A program made the translations under genes and the position numbers. The notes under the pieces are model-generated. The model worked only from the letters and a program-made list of their open reading frames with translations. It searched no databases and was not told where the DNA came from. Below, in pieces: positions 4,725 to 27,234 of a stretch of 28,950 bases of DNA (position 1 is its first letter; each line of letters begins with the position of its first letter). Source of the DNA: a virus; IMG/VR virus record IMGVR_UViG_3300012351_000024, positions 1 through 28,950 of that record; one strand, 5' to 3'.

Positions 4725-6251
4725 TCATGGCTTGCCTCCCTGCTGTGGCGCTGCTTGCGGTGCAGGCGTGCCAGGAATAGGGTATTTTTGGCCTGGCAGC
4801 GCGGGCGCGCCTAGTTGGGCCGGTGGGAACGTGTCCGCCATGGCCTGCGCTTTCGCTAGTTTTCTCGCATCCTCTGCATCCGAGAGTCGGGCTTCTTCAT
4901 CAGGATCATAGCCAAGTTCTCTTTGCAACGTTGTTTCTGAAATGTTGAGTTCCCTCTTGCTAATCGCTGTCTGCACTGAAGAAAGATCATCATGCGGGAG
5001 AGGCGATTGCCATGCCAGGGTAATATCAATATTCGCTGAGAAGCCCGCGAGAACAAGCAAAGCCTTGCTTACTTCGATAATGAGATTGCCATAAAGTTGC
5101 TGTTTTTTCTCAATCAGCTTCAACAGCGACATGAACAGCAGTTCTATGGCAATGCCGCTGAGATTGCCGCGTGGCATGGTGGCAATGCGCCCGGTAGCGA
5201 CGCCCGGCACGCTCGACCGCTCGTCCATCGAAGAGCGCAAGTCGGCCGCCACTTTCAGCATGTTGGCGATATCGGTCGTGAAGTTGACCGCGACGATCTT
5301 GCCGTCCAGGGTCGGCAGGTTGGTAATGGTGCCGGGAGCCCGATCTATGCGTGTATTGCCCATGCCCACGCTATAGATAAGCGGGTTGCCCAGGATCTTG
5401 CCCGTTCTGTTGATACAGGACATGACCAAATTGAGCGCGTTGTTCAGGCCGATCAGGTCTGCCGTGACGTCAGGCGTGGCCCAAAACTTGTTGGGCCGGG
5501 GCAGGTTCTTACAACTGAAGAGCGGTGCGAAAGGATAGGGCCAGATGTAGGGCGCGCCCGCCGGTGTCCAATTGCTATTCTTTGGTTGCATACCAGGACT
5601 ACCAACCTGCGTCCAATGCTGGATACGCCACGTGTCGTCATCGTCTGCCATGTCACGCGAGGCGTTGCCGTCCGGGTCAATGCGCGTGATCTCTTCACGG
5701 TAGTAGACCTGTAGCGGCCGACCGTTGTCCTGTTTGGAGGGAGCGCTGTACTGCGTGCAATACAAAAGCACGGTATCGCAGTCCTGCGGCGCGGTCTCGA
5801 CATAGACGATGGAGGGATCAGGAGCGATCAGGCGGTATTTCTTCTTCTTTAAAGGATTGCGCGGGTTGTCCTTCGAGGGCACAATACGCATAAAGCCCCG
5901 GCCCGCTATAGAGCCGTTCATACCCACATCTTGCAAGAGTGGCAGGCGGGTTTCCTTCTTGCCCCACACCGTATTGAGAAAGTCCTGAGCGGCTTGTGGC
6001 GCGCCCGCCTCTACGCTGATTTCCAGTTCCTTGCCGAAGAGGAAGTCATCGATGGTGTTAACGACGGGCGCGCAACAATTGTCGAGGATATTGTCGTCGG
6101 CCTCGTCCTCCATCGGTTTAAGCGGCTTGGGCAGGTCACCGTCGTATGCTTGCCAGGCGTCGGCAATGCGCTTCTGCCTCTCCCTATCCTCATCCGTGAT
6201 TTCGTATTGTGGTTGAGCCTGAACTTCAACCAGCGTAGGGGTCTGTGTCAT
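4725..6251 (-). CDS. Portal protein, SPP1 gp6-like
   Basis: The product has 508 residues. The N-terminal half shows the portal pattern: a helical start (EDRERQKRIADAWQAYDGDL), then NILDNCCAPVVNTIDDFLFG, the KDVGMNGSIAGRGFMRI-like core and a LIAPDPSIVYV wing strand. A long helix region (LIEKKQQLYGNLIIEVSKAL) and SPLPHDDLSSVQTAISKREL correspond to the C-terminal stem and crown; the tail is Pro/Ala-rich. Portal rings form the DNA channel at one capsid vertex and dock the terminase, whose genes are immediately upstream. Length matches the family (about 450-550). Identification is strong. Confidence 0.9.
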   Translation of the reverse strand: MTQTPTLVEVQAQPQYEITDEDRERQKRIADAWQAYDGDLPKPLKPMEDEADDNILDNCCAPVVNTIDDFLFGKELEISVEAGAPQAAQDFLNTVWGKKETRLPLLQDVGMNGSIAGRGFMRIVPSKDNPRNPLKKKKYRLIAPDPSIVYVETAPQDCDTVLLYCTQYSAPSKQDNGRPLQVYYREEITRIDPDGNASRDMADDDDTWRIQHWTQVGSPGMQPKNSNWTPAGAPYIWPYPFAPLFSCKNLPRPNKFWATPDVTADLIGLNNALNLVMSCINRTGKILGNPLIYSVGMGNTRIDRAPGTITNLPTLDGKIVAVNFTTDIANMLKVAADLRSSMDERSSVPGVATGRIATMPRGNLSGIAIELLFMSLLKLIEKKQQLYGNLIIEVSKALLVLAGFSANIDITLAWQSPLPHDDLSSVQTAISKRELNISETTLQRELGYDPDEEARLSDAEDARKLAKAQAMADTFPPAQLGAPALPGQKYPIPGTPAPQAAPQQGGKP

Positions 6252-6505: not shown

Positions 6506-7294
6506 TCAATACACCCTTTTCGAGTACGTAACTCTTTCATCGAACGGATTTTCCAAAACCGCTAGCGCCATGGCAGTGGCCAGATCGTCATGTTTGCCAG
6601 TGCTTGCGCCATAACTGTCTTTGCCGTCATCCGTTACTTTGATCTCATATACCCGCAATTCCTCAATGGTCGCTTTCATCTCAGCCGTATCCGGGCCATG
6701 CACGCGCCCGCCTTGCAGCAGAGATTGCAGCCTGCTCACAAGGTACGCTTTGGCCAGCACGCCGGTCGAACGGTTGTACTTCTCACCGGCGGAGAAGGTG
6801 ATGGGCTTCAGCAAGAGGCTGCGCATCTCCCCTTGACCCGGTTGAAACGTCCCATCTCTGTTCCAGATCCCATACTTGCGAGTCTCAATTTCCTTCTGTA
6901 AATCTTCGTAGACCGGGCGTCCTACCCCTGTGACATCAATCAGTACACGCACGTCGCGGTCAGCAAAGAGCGGGCTACACAGCATATCCGCGAGATGGAT
7001 CGCTACATCAGGGTAGCCGGTACCTAGCGGCAAGCGGCGGATGTGACGGATCGTGTACTCACTCACCAGAATGGGGTAGACATCTTTGGCCGGGACGAAT
7101 ATACCCATGTCGGTGTAGTGCGACGGCTGTGGCTTCTCTCCATAACGCCACTTGCCGGTGTCATGCTGGCTGACCTCAGCCACAGCAATAGCAGTCGGGT
7201 CGTGGATTTGCCCCACGTCAATCCCGACGCAAACGGGGTTGTAAAGTTGCTTGTGAATTTGATCAAGCACCCAATCACGGGTTACAGTTCCCAT
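6506..7294 (-). CDS. Terminase large subunit, nuclease half
   Basis: The 262-residue product carries the RNase H-fold nuclease of phage terminases: GIDVGQIHDPTAIAV with Asp26, LIDVTGVG with Asp120 and GKHDDLATAMAL with Asp236/237, the expected three acidic metal ligands. It cuts concatemeric DNA to start and end packaging. The ATPase half is encoded by the gene before it, overlapping by 13 bases in the -1 frame, so the usual single protein of about 500 residues is here split in two. The ATG at 7294 has AAGGA nine bases upstream, so independent translation is possible. Confidence 0.86.
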   Translation of the reverse strand: MGTVTRDWVLDQIHKQLYNPVCVGIDVGQIHDPTAIAVAEVSQHDTGKWRYGEKPQPSHYTDMGIFVPAKDVYPILVSEYTIRHIRRLPLGTGYPDVAIHLADMLCSPLFADRDVRVLIDVTGVGRPVYEDLQKEIETRKYGIWNRDGTFQPGQGEMRSLLLKPITFSAGEKYNRSTGVLAKAYLVSRLQSLLQGGRVHGPDTAEMKATIEELRVYEIKVTDDGKDSYGASTGKHDDLATAMALAVLENPFDERVTYSKRVY

Positions 7295-8034: not shown

Positions 8035-8506
8035 CCTCCATCTGAGTCAATGCGCCCGCGACCGCTACACGCGCATCAGGGAAGGGCACTAGCGCGGCAA
8101 TGATCGTTTGGCGGAGCGTGTGCCATTCCGGTGTGACATAGATATTGACCTGTGGTGTATCGATAGCGCCCAGGAGCTTGGCTTGCAGTTCCAACTGCTT
8201 GCACACGCGGTCAATGGCAAAGAGGGCCATGCCGTTCCTCTTCTCAGCCCGCGCCTCTTGCAAGATAGCCAGCGTCACCGCGTTGATGGTCTTTAGTTGC
8301 TTGACCACATCCAGGCCCTGCATCTCTTCCTTGGCTGCCTGCGACTGCTTGACCTCTTGCGCGATATGCTCAGCAGCATGACGAGTGATCGCTGGTGGGG
8401 ATGTACCGTATCGTTCCGCTATGTTCCGATACGAGGTACCCGCAACAATTGCAGCCTCGATCTCAGCGCGTTTCTCACTAGAGCATATGGTGCAAGTTCT
8501 AGGCAT
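8012..8506 (-). CDS. Terminase small subunit-like HTH protein
   Basis: The 164-residue product starts MPRTCTICSSEKRAEIEAAI; the ATG at 8506 was preferred to an upstream GTG because GAGGTG lies nine bases before it. Residues 26-45 form a helix-turn-helix (YRNIAERYGTSPPAITRHAA), followed by helical oligomerisation segments. Such small HTH proteins next to the large subunit recognise the packaging start site. Position and motif agree; the CTIC pair at the N-terminus may bind metal. It overlaps the methyltransferase stop. Confidence 0.74.
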   Translation of the reverse strand: MPRTCTICSSEKRAEIEAAIVAGTSYRNIAERYGTSPPAITRHAAEHIAQEVKQSQAAKEEMQGLDVVKQLKTINAVTLAILQEARAEKRNGMALFAIDRVCKQLELQAKLLGAIDTPQVNIYVTPEWHTLRQTIIAALVPFPDARVAVAGALTQMEVGRAGLN

Positions 8507-12678: not shown

Positions 12679-13164
12679 CTAAAAAATATTCCGTTCAACT
12701 TCTGCCACGCGATACGAGTCAATATGTCTCAATCGCTGCCAGAACTCAGCAGGGGTCATGCTACGTAGTTGCTTCACCGACACAATACGCCGCTCTCTCT
12801 TCCATATATCAGCCACAAGATAGGCGATGCCATGTGAGTTGCCGATATATGGCTTCCAGCGCATACGACGGACAATGGCACTCACTTCTTTCCAGGCGAT
12901 GAAGCGGGAGGTCTCATCGCGCAAAGAGAGCAGGCGTTGCTGCTCTCGTCCTGCTCCCAACTTCTCTAATTCCTTGTGGCGTTCCCAGTAGTCGTATATC
13001 TCCTCGTCATCGAGAACTTTACCACTGGCCGTCCTTATAGACTCAGGAGAGGCAAGGCCATATCCTACGTCGTTATCAGCGCGCTCAAGCGCATCGACCA
13101 AATTCTTCTCTTCTTCTGAGTACTTACTGAAATGCCGCCAGTACGTATAGGTGACCTTTGCCAT
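12679..13164 (-). CDS. Helical phage protein, unknown
   Basis: The 161-residue product begins MAKVTYTYWRHFSKYSEEEK with GAAGGG 9-14 bases before the ATG. It is charged and helical throughout (VDALERADNDVGYGLASPES, then DYWERHKELEKLGAGREQQR) and ends with a basic-aromatic part. No family is recognised. It is the last gene of the accessory operon before the strand switch at 12653-12678. Confidence 0.6.
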   Translation of the reverse strand: MAKVTYTYWRHFSKYSEEEKNLVDALERADNDVGYGLASPESIRTASGKVLDDEEIYDYWERHKELEKLGAGREQQRLLSLRDETSRFIAWKEVSAIVRRMRWKPYIGNSHGIAYLVADIWKRERRIVSVKQLRSMTPAEFWQRLRHIDSYRVAEVERNIF

Positions 13165-17622: not shown

Positions 17623-17915
17623 TATTCTTGCTCCTTTGACTGTTCGTTCACTTCCAACAAACTACGAAGGTATTCTCTGACTTCATTAACGATGGTTTGC
17701 GAGAGATCACGCCCAAGTCCAGGGAAAACCAGGTCAATACTGAGGATATTATCATCCATGATCGTTGCTTTATAGGGCACACCAGGAAAATGCACAGCCA
17801 CATAGAGTTCTACGAGGGTCTTCCTCGCTTCCGCTGCTTCTCTGGCTTTCGCATGTAATTCCCGGTGGAGAACAACGAACCGCTCTTCTTGTAGAATCAG
17901 GACTTCTTTTCTCAT
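17622..17915 (-). CDS. Small helical protein after recombinase 1
   Basis: The 97-residue product starts MRKEVLILQEERFVVLHREL; residues 10-40 are helical and charged, the middle has VHFPGVPYKATIMDDNILSI and the end is acidic. It overlaps the recombinase stop as ATGA, so its synthesis is tied to that of the recombinase. No family is recognised; a small recombination directionality or accessory protein is possible by position only. Confidence 0.6.
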   Translation of the reverse strand: MRKEVLILQEERFVVLHRELHAKAREAAEARKTLVELYVAVHFPGVPYKATIMDDNILSIDLVFPGLGRDLSQTIVNEVREYLRSLLEVNEQSKEQE

Positions 17916-18874
17916 TCTTCCTTTTCCTTCAGGCCGTACGACTCAGCCAACGCCCGAGCGAACGGGTTCTCGCCCTGGTGCAAACTCTCCAGGTAGGTAC
18001 TTGTGGTCGCTTGATTTGAGTGCCCCAGTAACTTACTAATCAGGCTCAGCGGTGCGCCCAACTCTTGAAGCTTGCGAGCTGCCGTATGCCTCGTGCTATG
18101 GACTTTGGTGGTTCCCAGATACTTCAGACACACCCCTGCTATCGCCCTATAGCCAATCGGTTCGCGTTTGCCATGATTGGAGCAGGAAAGCCATACTGGA
18201 TCAGTGGACTTCCATCCCTCCGGGTAAGCAGCTTTCAGGTACTCGAAGATCGCGTGGGCGACGAGCAGATCAATGTTATCATACATGACTTTCCCGCCCT
18301 TGCACCTCTGCCAGGTGACGGTGACGGTTCCGCCGGTGAGCATAATATCCCCACACTTCAAGTTTTTGACCTCGCTTACCCGCCGGCCAGTGTTGAGCAG
18401 TAGGTTAAGCATGGCAAAGTCGCGCTTGCCGAGAAGAGTAGAACGGTCGATGGAGGCGAGGGCTTTTTCAACCATGTCCTTATCCAGTGGGTGAGCTGCG
18501 TGCGGATGGGAGACCTTACGCTTCTCAACCATCTCCATGGGGTTCGTGGGCAAGTAACGCATTTTGCGAGCGTAGACATAAAAGCTCGAGATGGTATGGA
18601 TCCTTTGATTATGCGTTGAGGATGAAATTGGGTTGCCAAGAGAACTATACTCAGCCCACCATTGGGCGTACTCAGCAATCACGGTCTCTTCGCTATCGAG
18701 ATCCAGACCATATTGGTGGAGCAGAGCGCGGAAAGCGGCCATGTAGTCTGTGTAGGCGTCCAGCGTCATCTGGCTATGGGAAAGTGAGGTCTTGGCGTGC
18801 AACCAGCCTGCGACCATTTGATCGACAGTGGGCTTGTCTCTGCCATGCGAGATGATAAGTGCTTGATTGTTCAT
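17912..18874 (-). CDS. Tyrosine recombinase 1
   Basis: The 320-residue product has an N-terminal SAM-like core-binding domain (about 15-115) and a catalytic domain with all expected residues: Arg165 in TGRRVSEV, Lys192/195 in QRCKGGK, His259-x-x-Arg262 in HSTRH, His285 in LLGHSN and the nucleophile Tyr294 in STYLE. It cuts and rejoins DNA at a paired core site. It belongs to the operon started at 19876, so it is expressed with regulatory small proteins, unlike the second recombinase at 26275. It could be a phage integrase, or act in dimer resolution or inversion; no attachment site is obvious beside it. Confidence 0.9.
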   Translation of the reverse strand: MNNQALIISHGRDKPTVDQMVAGWLHAKTSLSHSQMTLDAYTDYMAAFRALLHQYGLDLDSEETVIAEYAQWWAEYSSLGNPISSSTHNQRIHTISSFYVYARKMRYLPTNPMEMVEKRKVSHPHAAHPLDKDMVEKALASIDRSTLLGKRDFAMLNLLLNTGRRVSEVKNLKCGDIMLTGGTVTVTWQRCKGGKVMYDNIDLLVAHAIFEYLKAAYPEGWKSTDPVWLSCSNHGKREPIGYRAIAGVCLKYLGTTKVHSTRHTAARKLQELGAPLSLISKLLGHSNQATTSTYLESLHQGENPFARALAESYGLKEKEE

Positions 18875-19465: not shown

Positions 19466-19637
19466 CACCGGCTCCTTGCTGCTCTCGTTTGGGAGGTGAG
19501 TCTCTATAGAGACCGTCCCTCCCATGATCGATGCAAAAGGTACAGAATCCCCGCTCATCAAGATCACCACACACGCTTATACCTCGATTGCAGTGGCGAC
19601 AACAGCCGCGCCACCCTGTCCAATCGTCAAAGATCAT
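19458..19637 (-). CDS. 59-residue zinc-ribbon protein
   Basis: The frame MIFDDWTGWRGCCRHCNRGI then SVCGDLDERGFCTFCIDHGR has two Cys pairs (CRHC and CTFC) plus a further CG, a compact zinc ribbon. The ATG overlaps the RHH stop (ATGA), AAGGATGAG precedes it, and its stop overlaps the next start. Coupling on both sides supports translation. It would be made in step with the RHH regulator. No specific family. Confidence 0.66.
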   Translation of the reverse strand: MIFDDWTGWRGCCRHCNRGISVCGDLDERGFCTFCIDHGRDGLYRDSPPKREQQGAGDE

Positions 19638-19876
19638 AGCTCATCCTTTCTACCCCTAACCGCCTTTGAGTGCCCATGACTGAAGTCATGGGGGTGAAAA
19701 AGGCGTTCCTTTTGGGGCATGATGGGTGGGGCTTGCTCTTGCCTTGCCACAATTTGCAAAGCTAAGCGCACTGCCGCCGTATCTGAGTTACACCCATACA
19801 ACCCCCTGATCTTTTTAATTGCTTGCATATCTTGCGGAGTAAACCGCATCGTTGTGTTTTTCGATTTCTTTTCCAT
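19634..19876 (-). CDS. RHH regulator divergent from structured RNA
   Basis: The 80-residue product starts KKSKNTTMRFTPQDMQAIKK after Met-Glu; TTMRF (strand), two helices and the AAVRLALQIVARQ segment fit a ribbon-helix-helix domain (residues 8-48). The tail (LFHPHDFSHGHSKAVRG) is encoded by a hairpin of IS200/IS605 style (19673-19692). Its promoter leaves only about six bases between the -10 box and the ATG, so the transcript should be nearly leaderless. The -35 boxes of this gene and of the facing RNA overlap in a palindrome, a natural autoregulation site. It is first in an operon of zinc ribbons and recombinase 1. Confidence 0.74.
   Translation of the reverse strand: MEKKSKNTTMRFTPQDMQAIKKIRGLYGCNSDTAAVRLALQIVARQEQAPPIMPQKERLFHPHDFSHGHSKAVRGRKDEL
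19673..19692. repeat. IS200/IS605-style hairpin inside RHH gene
   Basis: CCCATGAC, loop TGAA, GTCATGGG is a perfect 8-bp stem. Such CATGAC/GTCATG hairpins are frequent at ends of IS200/IS605 elements. Here it encodes HDFSHGH in the RHH tail and may mark the far end of a small inserted unit reaching to 20212. Confidence 0.45.
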
Positions 19877-19882
19877 GTAACC

Positions 19883-19922
19883 AGTATATTCATTTGACAG
19901 GTGTCTGTCAATGTGCTATACT
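19883..19922. promoter_or_regulatory. Overlapping divergent promoters with palindromic operator
   Basis: Plus strand: TTGACA (19894-19899), 17 bases, TATACT (19917-19922). Minus strand: TTGACA (19911-19906), 17 bases, TATACT (19888-19883). Both are near-perfect. The shared centre, TTGACAG-GTGT-CTGTCAA (19894-19911), is a palindrome covering both -35 boxes, so one bound regulator would control both directions. Confidence 0.85.
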
Positions 19923-19928
19923 ATGGTT

Positions 19929-20212
19929 GTCTCTCGAGAAGACGTAAGACGGTAAGGCGTAAGCCCCAGTGCAGACTTCTCGATGCACATGGATAACCGA
20001 ATAGTGTTTCGCTGGGTTCCAGGCTAAAACGTTCGCCTGGGTAAAAGCACTAGCGTAAAATTGTCAATGTGCCAATCGTTGAGCAGGTCAGGCGATACAA
20101 AGTCGCTTGTGAGATTGCAACGGACAAACGGGCCAGGGCATGGCCTTCAGGGACGGTCACGAAAACCGGTTGAACTGAGAAGCCCCTGCATAAATGCAGG
20201 GGGAGTTGTCAC
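19929..20212 (+). ncRNA. Strongly promoted structured RNA with IS605-type end
   Basis: A near-consensus promoter starts transcription around 19929. The next 280 bases have no convincing gene but many helices: TCGAGAAG (19934-19941) with CTTCTCGA (19976-19983); CCAGGC/GCCTGG (20019-20024, 20035-20040) inside a larger stem; and a terminal hairpin CCCCTGCA-TAAA-TGCAGGGG (20183-20202) clasped by AACT/AGTT and ending GTTGTCAC at 20212. That end is of the kind I know from right ends of IS200/IS605 elements and their omega RNAs. No tnpB or iscB is in the window, so it would be a trans-acting or co-opted RNA. If so, the guide would follow at 20213. It converges on the cytosine methyltransferase gene. 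A HEARO/IscB-type RNA or another phage RNA are alternatives. Confidence 0.55.
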
Positions 20213-20243
20213 ATACATGAACCCGACATAGATGTACTAAAAC

Positions 20244-20777
20244 CTATCTGTTTGCTTCAAAGAACGCCCGCGCAAAACCTTGTGGCGTGATACCACGCTT
20301 TGCCGAATCGCGTACCATCGTATGCATCATACTTCCCATGGTAGCCGGGACAGGCGCTCTTTGTGGAATAGCAAACTTACCCCACAACGCTGTTTTCTTC
20401 GTGTACGGGTCGCCATACTCATAGGGGTCAAATACCCATTGAGGCTTGCCCAGGTAATGAAAGAGTTTTCCTACCGGGTTCTCTAACGCCCAAAACACGG
20501 GGTTACACACCACGACCATACGCAAGCAGGCATCGATGATTGACAGTGCCTGGAGTATCTCTTCCTCTGTCCGCTCCCATCTATTTCTTGCGAGAGAGAA
20601 CAGGGTACAGGGAGGAGCTGCCAGAATACCATAGACGTTTTCCGGTGGTTCGTAGAGACGCACATCTTGGGGCAGAGTCACCAGGCGCACATCATAGCCA
20701 TGTTCTGTATATGGCCTGCTCCATGCGCCACTGCCACCGCACAAATCCAGGATGATTTTTGTATTATCGAACAACAT
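20244..20777 (-). CDS. Small cytosine-C5 DNA methyltransferase
   Basis: The 177-residue product shows motif I LDLCGGSG (10-17), the catalytic PPC of motif IV (55-57) and ENP of motif VI (99-101), the hallmarks of DNA cytosine-C5 methyltransferases. At 177 residues it is about half the usual length and lacks a clear target-recognition domain and motif IX/X region, as is seen in some phage enzymes. GAGGTAGAG precedes the ATG. It ends the early operon and is the second methyltransferase of this phage; it may protect the DNA from host restriction. Confidence 0.82.
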   Translation of the reverse strand: MLFDNTKIILDLCGGSGAWSRPYTEHGYDVRLVTLPQDVRLYEPPENVYGILAAPPCTLFSLARNRWERTEEEILQALSIIDACLRMVVVCNPVFWALENPVGKLFHYLGKPQWVFDPYEYGDPYTKKTALWGKFAIPQRAPVPATMGSMMHTMVRDSAKRGITPQGFARAFFEANR

Positions 20778-26274: not shown

Positions 26275-27234
26275 CTACAAATGGCGGTACTTCTCCTCAA
26301 GAAGTTTTGCACCAGGGTCTTCTGTTCCAACAAGCGAACGGAGATACACATCAGTCGTCGAAAGATTCTGATGGCGCAAAAGATGCTGGATGCTTCTGAT
26401 ATCCTCACCACTTTCATATCTGGCTTTTGCTGATGTATGCCTGAGTGTGTGGAGAGAGGCATGGATTCCTGCGCGCTTTGCATAGTAAGTAATCCGGTTT
26501 ACTATGCCTCTAGCTGAGAGCCTGCGTACCTCGCCACGTTTGACATTGCCGCCTTCAATAGCCGTAAACAATGGGTCACCTGACTGTATCGTTTGAATAC
26601 GCCCGCTCGCGATCAAGTACCAATCTATAGCATTTTTCGCCGGTTGCGGTAATTCCTGGCTATCACGTTCAGATTTATGACCCTTGCTTCTAAATGAGTA
26701 TGTCCAGCCTTGGCGCATCCCACCATGCCCATCAGGAAATGATGCCGATTGAATATCGCCATAAAGCAATTCAGAAATCTCTGAACGCCTGCGTGCTGAC
26801 CAAAACACCAGAAGTAGCACAGCCCTATCCCTGATTCCGATGAGAGAATCTTGAGGTATCACTGAGAACAGCCGTGTAAGCTCTTCAAACGTAAGCCCTT
26901 TGGGCGAGTATTCTGGCTTACCACGCACAATACCAAGAGTGGGGTTAGCCAGTTTCCAGAGGGGTTCCGTCTTCCCCGCAGGAACATACATTGAGGCGTA
27001 CCGGTAAAAACTGGAGATAGCTGAGAGGCGGAGATTGATAGTGGCGATGGAGGGAGCGCCATGAGCATGATGGGCATAAGCAAACGCCTCTACATCACGG
27101 CGGGTCACGGTGTCGGGCGTATGCTGTGCAAAGAAGCGTCTCAGGGTACCACCGTAGCTAGCGCTGGTATCCTGGCTGCACACCGCCATTGTTCTTAGAA
27201 AGTCGCGGAGACACTGTTCCCAGGCAGTTTCCAT
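26275..27234 (-). CDS. Tyrosine recombinase 2 (likely phage integrase)
   Basis: The 319-residue product has a core-binding domain (about 5-95) and a catalytic domain with Arg149 (SARRRSEIS), Lys184 (RSKGHK), His262-x-x-Arg265 (HTLRH), His288 (LLRHQN, where LGH is usual) and Tyr297 (DVYL). It catalyses site-specific recombination. It is alone on its transcript, reads away from an excisionase-like HTH gene (27561), and has inverted repeats just upstream (27238-27274 and 27327-27381). That layout is typical of an integrase/excisionase module, so this one is the better candidate for prophage integration than recombinase 1. Start: ATG 27234, with a weak AGGTG site. Confidence 0.9.
   Translation of the reverse strand: METAWEQCLRDFLRTMAVCSQDTSASYGGTLRRFFAQHTPDTVTRRDVEAFAYAHHAHGAPSIATINLRLSAISSFYRYASMYVPAGKTEPLWKLANPTLGIVRGKPEYSPKGLTFEELTRLFSVIPQDSLIGIRDRAVLLLVFWSARRRSEISELLYGDIQSASFPDGHGGMRQGWTYSFRSKGHKSERDSQELPQPAKNAIDWYLIASGRIQTIQSGDPLFTAIEGGNVKRGEVRRLSARGIVNRITYYAKRAGIHASLHTLRHTSAKARYESGEDIRSIQHLLRHQNLSTTDVYLRSLVGTEDPGAKLLEEKYRHL

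Follow-up and report, generated by a model that had tools for sequence, protein, structure and literature searches.

Orphan omega-RNAs of IscB, in which the guide RNA lies apart from its nuclease, have been reported for Ktedonobacter racemifer, and TldR proteins are nuclease-dead TnpB repressors that act with a guide RNA. In ISDra2, TnpB uses an RNA derived from the right end (RE) whose guide is the flanking sequence, and cuts the donor joint beside the target motif (PMC8612924). As a rule the RNA comes from TnpB's own mRNA, out of which the protein can cut it, and in almost all TnpB RNAs the RE hairpin is found within ~10 nt of the guide (PMC10278001). Palindrome-associated transposable elements (PATEs) are derivatives of IS605 that consist of ends only and are presumably moved in trans (PMC7290912).

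The locus considered here lies in a virus fragment of 28,950 bases, the whole of which was analysed and is called the window below. Comparison with its relatives suggests an IS200/IS605-type element, non-autonomous and carried by the phage, that chiefly yields a predicted stand-alone guide RNA. It shares with the orphan IscB omega-RNAs the separation of guide RNA and nuclease and the bacterial class in which they occur, but its scaffold is of the TnpB type, its predicted guide is at the 3′ end and HEARO is not matched. The likeness to TldR is a TnpB-type guide RNA possibly working in a phage setting; in contrast, the window has no tldR, the guides are not conserved and the RuvC motifs are retained in the alignment of the nearest TnpB. 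The ISDra2-type omega-RNA (reRNA) has in common with the window RNA an RE-derived 3′ scaffold, a hairpin near the end, a guide in the flank and a motif before the left end (LE), whereas the latter is unlinked to tnpB and has its own promoter, an extra conserved 5′ domain and an RHH gene aboard. As in PATEs, IS605 ends are found with no transposase and in many copies in relatives, presumably moved in trans (PMC7290912), but elements of the window type have, in addition, a promoter, a structured RNA that is conserved and sometimes an RHH gene. In a literature search of incomplete coverage, no TnpB-scaffold RNA element that combines a promoter of its own with a conserved 5′ domain and an RHH gene was found, nor any account of RHH together with tnpB. 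New here are an RNA domain that is not in Rfam and the RHH-tnpB gene pair.

The element and its TnpB-type ends

The fragment carries portal, terminase and integrase genes, and its resemblances suggest that the host of the phage belongs to the Ktedonobacteria, which are soil bacteria. Two tyrosine integrase/recombinase genes are present, at 17912-18874 and 26275-27234. The element, of 559 bp (19654-20212, + strand), is situated between two phage genes; neither transposase nor TnpB is encoded inside it, and a search of the whole 28,950-base record found no TnpB, and the record contains no tnpA. Just behind CTAC it comprises, in order, the LE hairpin, a leaderless RHH gene, back-to-back promoters, a predicted RNA of ~284 nt and an RE with GTTGTCAC. 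CTAC (19650-19653, + strand), the predicted insertion target and TAM, stands directly 5′ of the LE, and reading of the flanks by eye located it in the same place in L093 and in the tnpB elements L078, L079, L080, L081 and L086. The coordinates of the sequence-only reading are to be widened to CTAC 19650-19653 plus the element 19654-20212.

Both IS-type hairpins which that reading had described are present. The LE hairpin (CCCATGACT-GA-AGTCATGGG, 19673-19692), which read on the − strand gives the C-terminal tail of the RHH protein, has equivalents in L081, L093 and others. The RE hairpin (20183-20203, + strand) is followed by GTTGTCAC, ends 9 nt from the end of the element and corresponds to helix 6 of the RNA fold. 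The LE is homologous to that of the tnpB element L081 and the RE to that of L078. Since LE, RE and CTAC all match tnpB elements, the window holds a 559-bp element with the ends of a TnpB family of Ktedonobacteria, and the view of the locus as a unit with IS605 bounds that lacks tnpA, tnpB and iscB is supported.

The RE was first placed beside a tnpB gene by a weak plasmid match. The RE pattern then matched nine genome contigs, all from Ktedonobacteria. Exact matches to GGGGGAGTTGTCAC among viral contigs were for the most part due to chance and lay in coding sequence. The final ~82 nt of the RNA (20131-20212, + strand) proved homologous to the 3′ end of Ktedonobacteria tnpB genes and the adjoining RE, with 79-81% identity to loci of G001 and G003. 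In L078 the matching stretch (80% over query positions 6-87) is the 3′ end of a gene for a 383-aa TnpB together with its RE, and the reading frame of tnpB continues through it. This TnpB contains the domains OrfB_IS605 and TNB, and most of its length, RuvC motifs included, can be aligned with solved TnpBs. The window RNA ends at the element boundary as TnpB scaffolds do, and the 9 nt that separate its stem-loop from the boundary are within the ~10 nt usual for TnpB RNAs; it differs from a TnpB omega-RNA made in cis in being located at no tnpB 3′ end, and its relatives likewise stand alone. By analogy with the anatomy of TnpB omega-RNA (PMC8612924), the predicted guide is the flank ATACATGAACCCGACA... 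at 20213-20228 (+ strand). The proposal of an omega-RNA-like RNA that would require a nuclease in trans is supported, and the scaffold shared with tnpB 3′ ends narrows it to the TnpB type; for the IscB/HEARO type there was no match.

The RNA and its conserved 5′ domain

The predicted stand-alone omega-like RNA extends from 19929, a start deduced from the promoter, to 20212 (+ strand, ~284 nt). The RNA strand is more stably folded than its shuffles (z -2.5, with 3 of 200 shuffles as good), which, together with the covariation in the family, agrees with the structured RNA of roughly 280 nt that had been proposed. In the alignment A3 of 18 full-length members, 34 pairs were predicted, 20 of them with changes on both sides, a result that was reached by none of 500 shuffles. 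Of the cells, 96.2% paired; the figure was 82.9% for shuffles and did not exceed 56.3% once the partners were slid, although the structure was derived from A3 itself, which biases the sliding control in its favour. Helix 6, the RE hairpin, was paired in 96.5% of cells.

For the 5′ domain a covariance model, R1, was built from 26 training sequences, and the window domain (19978-20084, + strand), itself a member of the training set, matched it with 91.4 bits (E 1.5e-18). The viral contig L213, which is outside the training set, gave 72.7 bits. Matches to the RNA body were found by blastn in 10 of the 47 genomes of the Ktedonobacteria class. R1 matched 14 of them, in one case weakly; G040 has 19 copies, G041 has 14 and G003 has 9. 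In a sample of 400 Chloroflexota genomes 13 were positive for the RNA, all among the class genomes already found. Homologs with conserved structure, the absence of which the sequence-only reading had named as a refutation, exist. Most RNA copies examined have no ORF but have their own ends. The family is also present on three viral contigs, the third being L213, where the 5′ domain (8087-8192) adjoins a lysin-like gene; in this phage copy the right end is shortened, and neither an LE nor an RHH gene is recognised.

No Rfam family was matched on 19600-20300 up to E 10, HEARO included, so that HEARO, introns and other known RNA families are not recognised, and the readings as IscB RNA, group I intron or IStron were dropped. 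Neither did the tnpB elements L078 and L081 match R1, even with the filters off. Without a counterpart in these tnpB elements, the 5′ domain may serve something else.

The divergent promoters and the RHH gene

The RNA promoter (19894-19922, + strand) and the RHH promoter (19911-19883, − strand) both read TTGACA-17-TATACT, as had been noticed before, each with 11 of 12 consensus positions and a 17-nt spacer; the latter is located 6 nt before the ATG. A -35/-10 pair of this type was found upstream of 11 of the 18 full-length family members. The inverted repeat TTGACAG-N4-CTGTCAA at 19894-19911 is made by the two -35 boxes and is a candidate RHH operator. The palindrome of the sequence-only reading is therefore present, but it consists of the two facing -35 hexamers (TTGACA N6 TGTCAA) and is not independent evidence of an operator. 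The N6 spacing recurs in L093 and, weaker, in L180. Repression of the divergent promoter by the RHH protein is plausible.

A strong promoter of the RNA's own, together with the extra conserved 5′ domain that the tnpB elements L078 and L081 lack, would also agree with a decoy or inhibitor, whose TnpB scaffold would titrate TnpB (or TnpA, via the ends) and shield the element or the phage from a resident TnpB. We regard this as unlikely, since the exact scaffold-guide boundary is kept at the element end and every copy has a different flank, as a guide requires.

The RHH gene (19634-19876, − strand) encodes 80 aa, with a predicted RHH domain in the first ~50 residues, as assigned from the families A2 and A4, homologues and a fold model. 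Its last codons traverse the LE and exit into the flank; these two stretches, read through, make up the tail. The gene is indeed nearly leaderless, its ATG (19876) lying 6 nt after its -10 box, and the same distance was found in all seven RHH or RHH-like genes compared. The fold model contains two confident helices, placed as in the RHH arrangement, and RHH proteins such as ParD were among its best matches in the structural comparison, but these were weak (Z <5). The ORF had no Pfam RHH match, and an RHH profile search by sequence found no RHH chain in the PDB.

A peptide pattern revealed no RHH relatives in viral and genome contigs, whereas searches of genomes by protein and by profile succeeded. 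The profile search of the Ktedonobacteria class gave four homologues in all. The first, L180/L125, has the divergent arrangement with the RNA that is also seen in the window and in the viral contig L093; the other three (L181, L182, L183) immediately precede tnpB, are co-directional with it and overlap it. These RHH-tnpB pairs, with a leaderless RHH gene overlapping the tnpB start, occupy 1752-3151 in L181, 3-633 in L182 and 344-1669 in L183; the tnpB of L183 is split over two frames and that of L182 is cut by the contig end. In all cases found, the RHH family occurs only beside a stand-alone RNA or in an operon with tnpB, and just a few of the RNA units have it. In L172 (1580-2011) a different RHH-like ORF diverges from an RNA that is a distant member of the family; the inverted repeat GTACCA-N7-TGGTAC lies between the two.

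Comparison of the window RHH gene with that of L093 gave a pN of 0.27, below the pS of 0.56, values that come from few sites at high divergence. This result, and the same divergent layout of RHH in L093 and L180, argue against a decayed tnpB element in which the RNA region would be the remnant of a broken protein gene. Such an origin would account for the last ~82 nt, which resemble a tnpB 3′ end; the 5′ domain, however, covaries as RNA and recurs across the class, which disfavours the decayed protein gene that the sequence-only reading had named as its refutation, and we hold this origin to be extremely improbable.

Mobility of the relatives and the proposed mode of action

Five near-identical copies of 355 bp in G041 start directly after TTAT, end at GTCGTCAC and have flanks that are all different. 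When the flanks are joined an open frame results, most clearly for an AsnC-like regulator in L120. Insertion 3′ of a short fixed motif without target duplication was therefore found for the TTAT relatives, and the window shows the CTAC motif alone. A search for the empty allele of the window site gave three matches, all in one unrelated coding context, and the neighbouring methyltransferase-like gene has relatives with only ~50% identity, none of them with a match to R1. The tnpB elements in G041, G040 and G003 have the same scaffold type as the stand-alone RNAs there (GGCTCGGACGGAGCC...GGGGAGTCGTCAC for the G041 tnpB). In G017, LE and RE are of one type in the stand-alone elements and in the RHH-tnpB element L183. 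The ORF upstream in L257, a tnpB element of the GTCGTCAC type in G003, resembles TnpA. The 5′ domain is retained across sub-lineages that differ in scaffold and end type, and each copy has a different flank as its predicted guide, the guides not being conserved between copies.

These data bear on a domesticated phage RNA, that is, an immobile unit which, by itself or together with TnpB as binder, would regulate genes of the phage or of the host. The position between two phage genes and the second phage copy, L213, with a shortened RE and no recognised LE, would fit it. Nevertheless, the ends and the target motif of the window copy look intact, the guides differ between copies and the cellular relatives are mobile and multicopy, so that domestication appears quite unlikely, and the earlier suggestions of co-option or of a regulator of phage genes are not upheld.

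The reading that we consider probable is that of a mobile element with a guide RNA only. This RNA, acting in trans, would direct a resident TnpB to the empty site of the element, and RHH would be the autoregulator. From sequence we infer transcription, binding of the RNA to TnpB and repression by RHH; the function of the RNA as a TnpB guide in trans would be a step from anatomy to function, against which the production of RNA in cis as the norm for TnpB (PMC10278001) counts. TnpA supplied in trans would move the element. After excision or replication, the resident TnpB loaded with the RNA would cut the empty site, recognised by CTAC as motif and by the flank from 20213 onwards as guide, and repair of the cut site would restore the element. 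By repressing the two back-to-back promoters, and in the operon form tnpB as well, RHH would control how much RNA is made. The same cut, made in a phage, would also strike co-infecting sibling genomes without the insertion, a homing-like advantage.

It is tempting to speculate further that one conserved 5′ RNA module was repeatedly joined to 3′ scaffolds of different TnpB lineages (those with GTTGTCAC, GTCGTCAC, GTGTCAA and TACTTCAC ends). These elements would then form a selfish class with only guide RNAs which parasitises resident TnpB, is checked by an RHH shared with the RHH-tnpB operons and acts in phages as a homing or marker-exclusion drive; this wider view is possible though doubtful. 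If the trans-acting mode is true, TnpB guide RNAs can exist separately from tnpB, as mobile elements that possess a promoter and a regulator of their own, analogous to a guide RNA that lacks its nuclease gene, and a selfish element borrows an RNA-guided nuclease of the host to keep its place. The persistence of elements without nuclease, and the use of host TnpB by phages against sibling phages, become testable.

Lone ends were also seen in other phages. The contig L020 carries a single IS605 RE of the GTTGTCAC type (6685-6717) between two genes, with no tnpB nearby. Three IS605 inserts of ~170 bp that consist of ends only, with an RE of the same type as the window, occur in the phage contig L088 around 2200-2400, 5790-5975 and 12900-13136, one of them in frame and free of stops inside an ssb-like gene.
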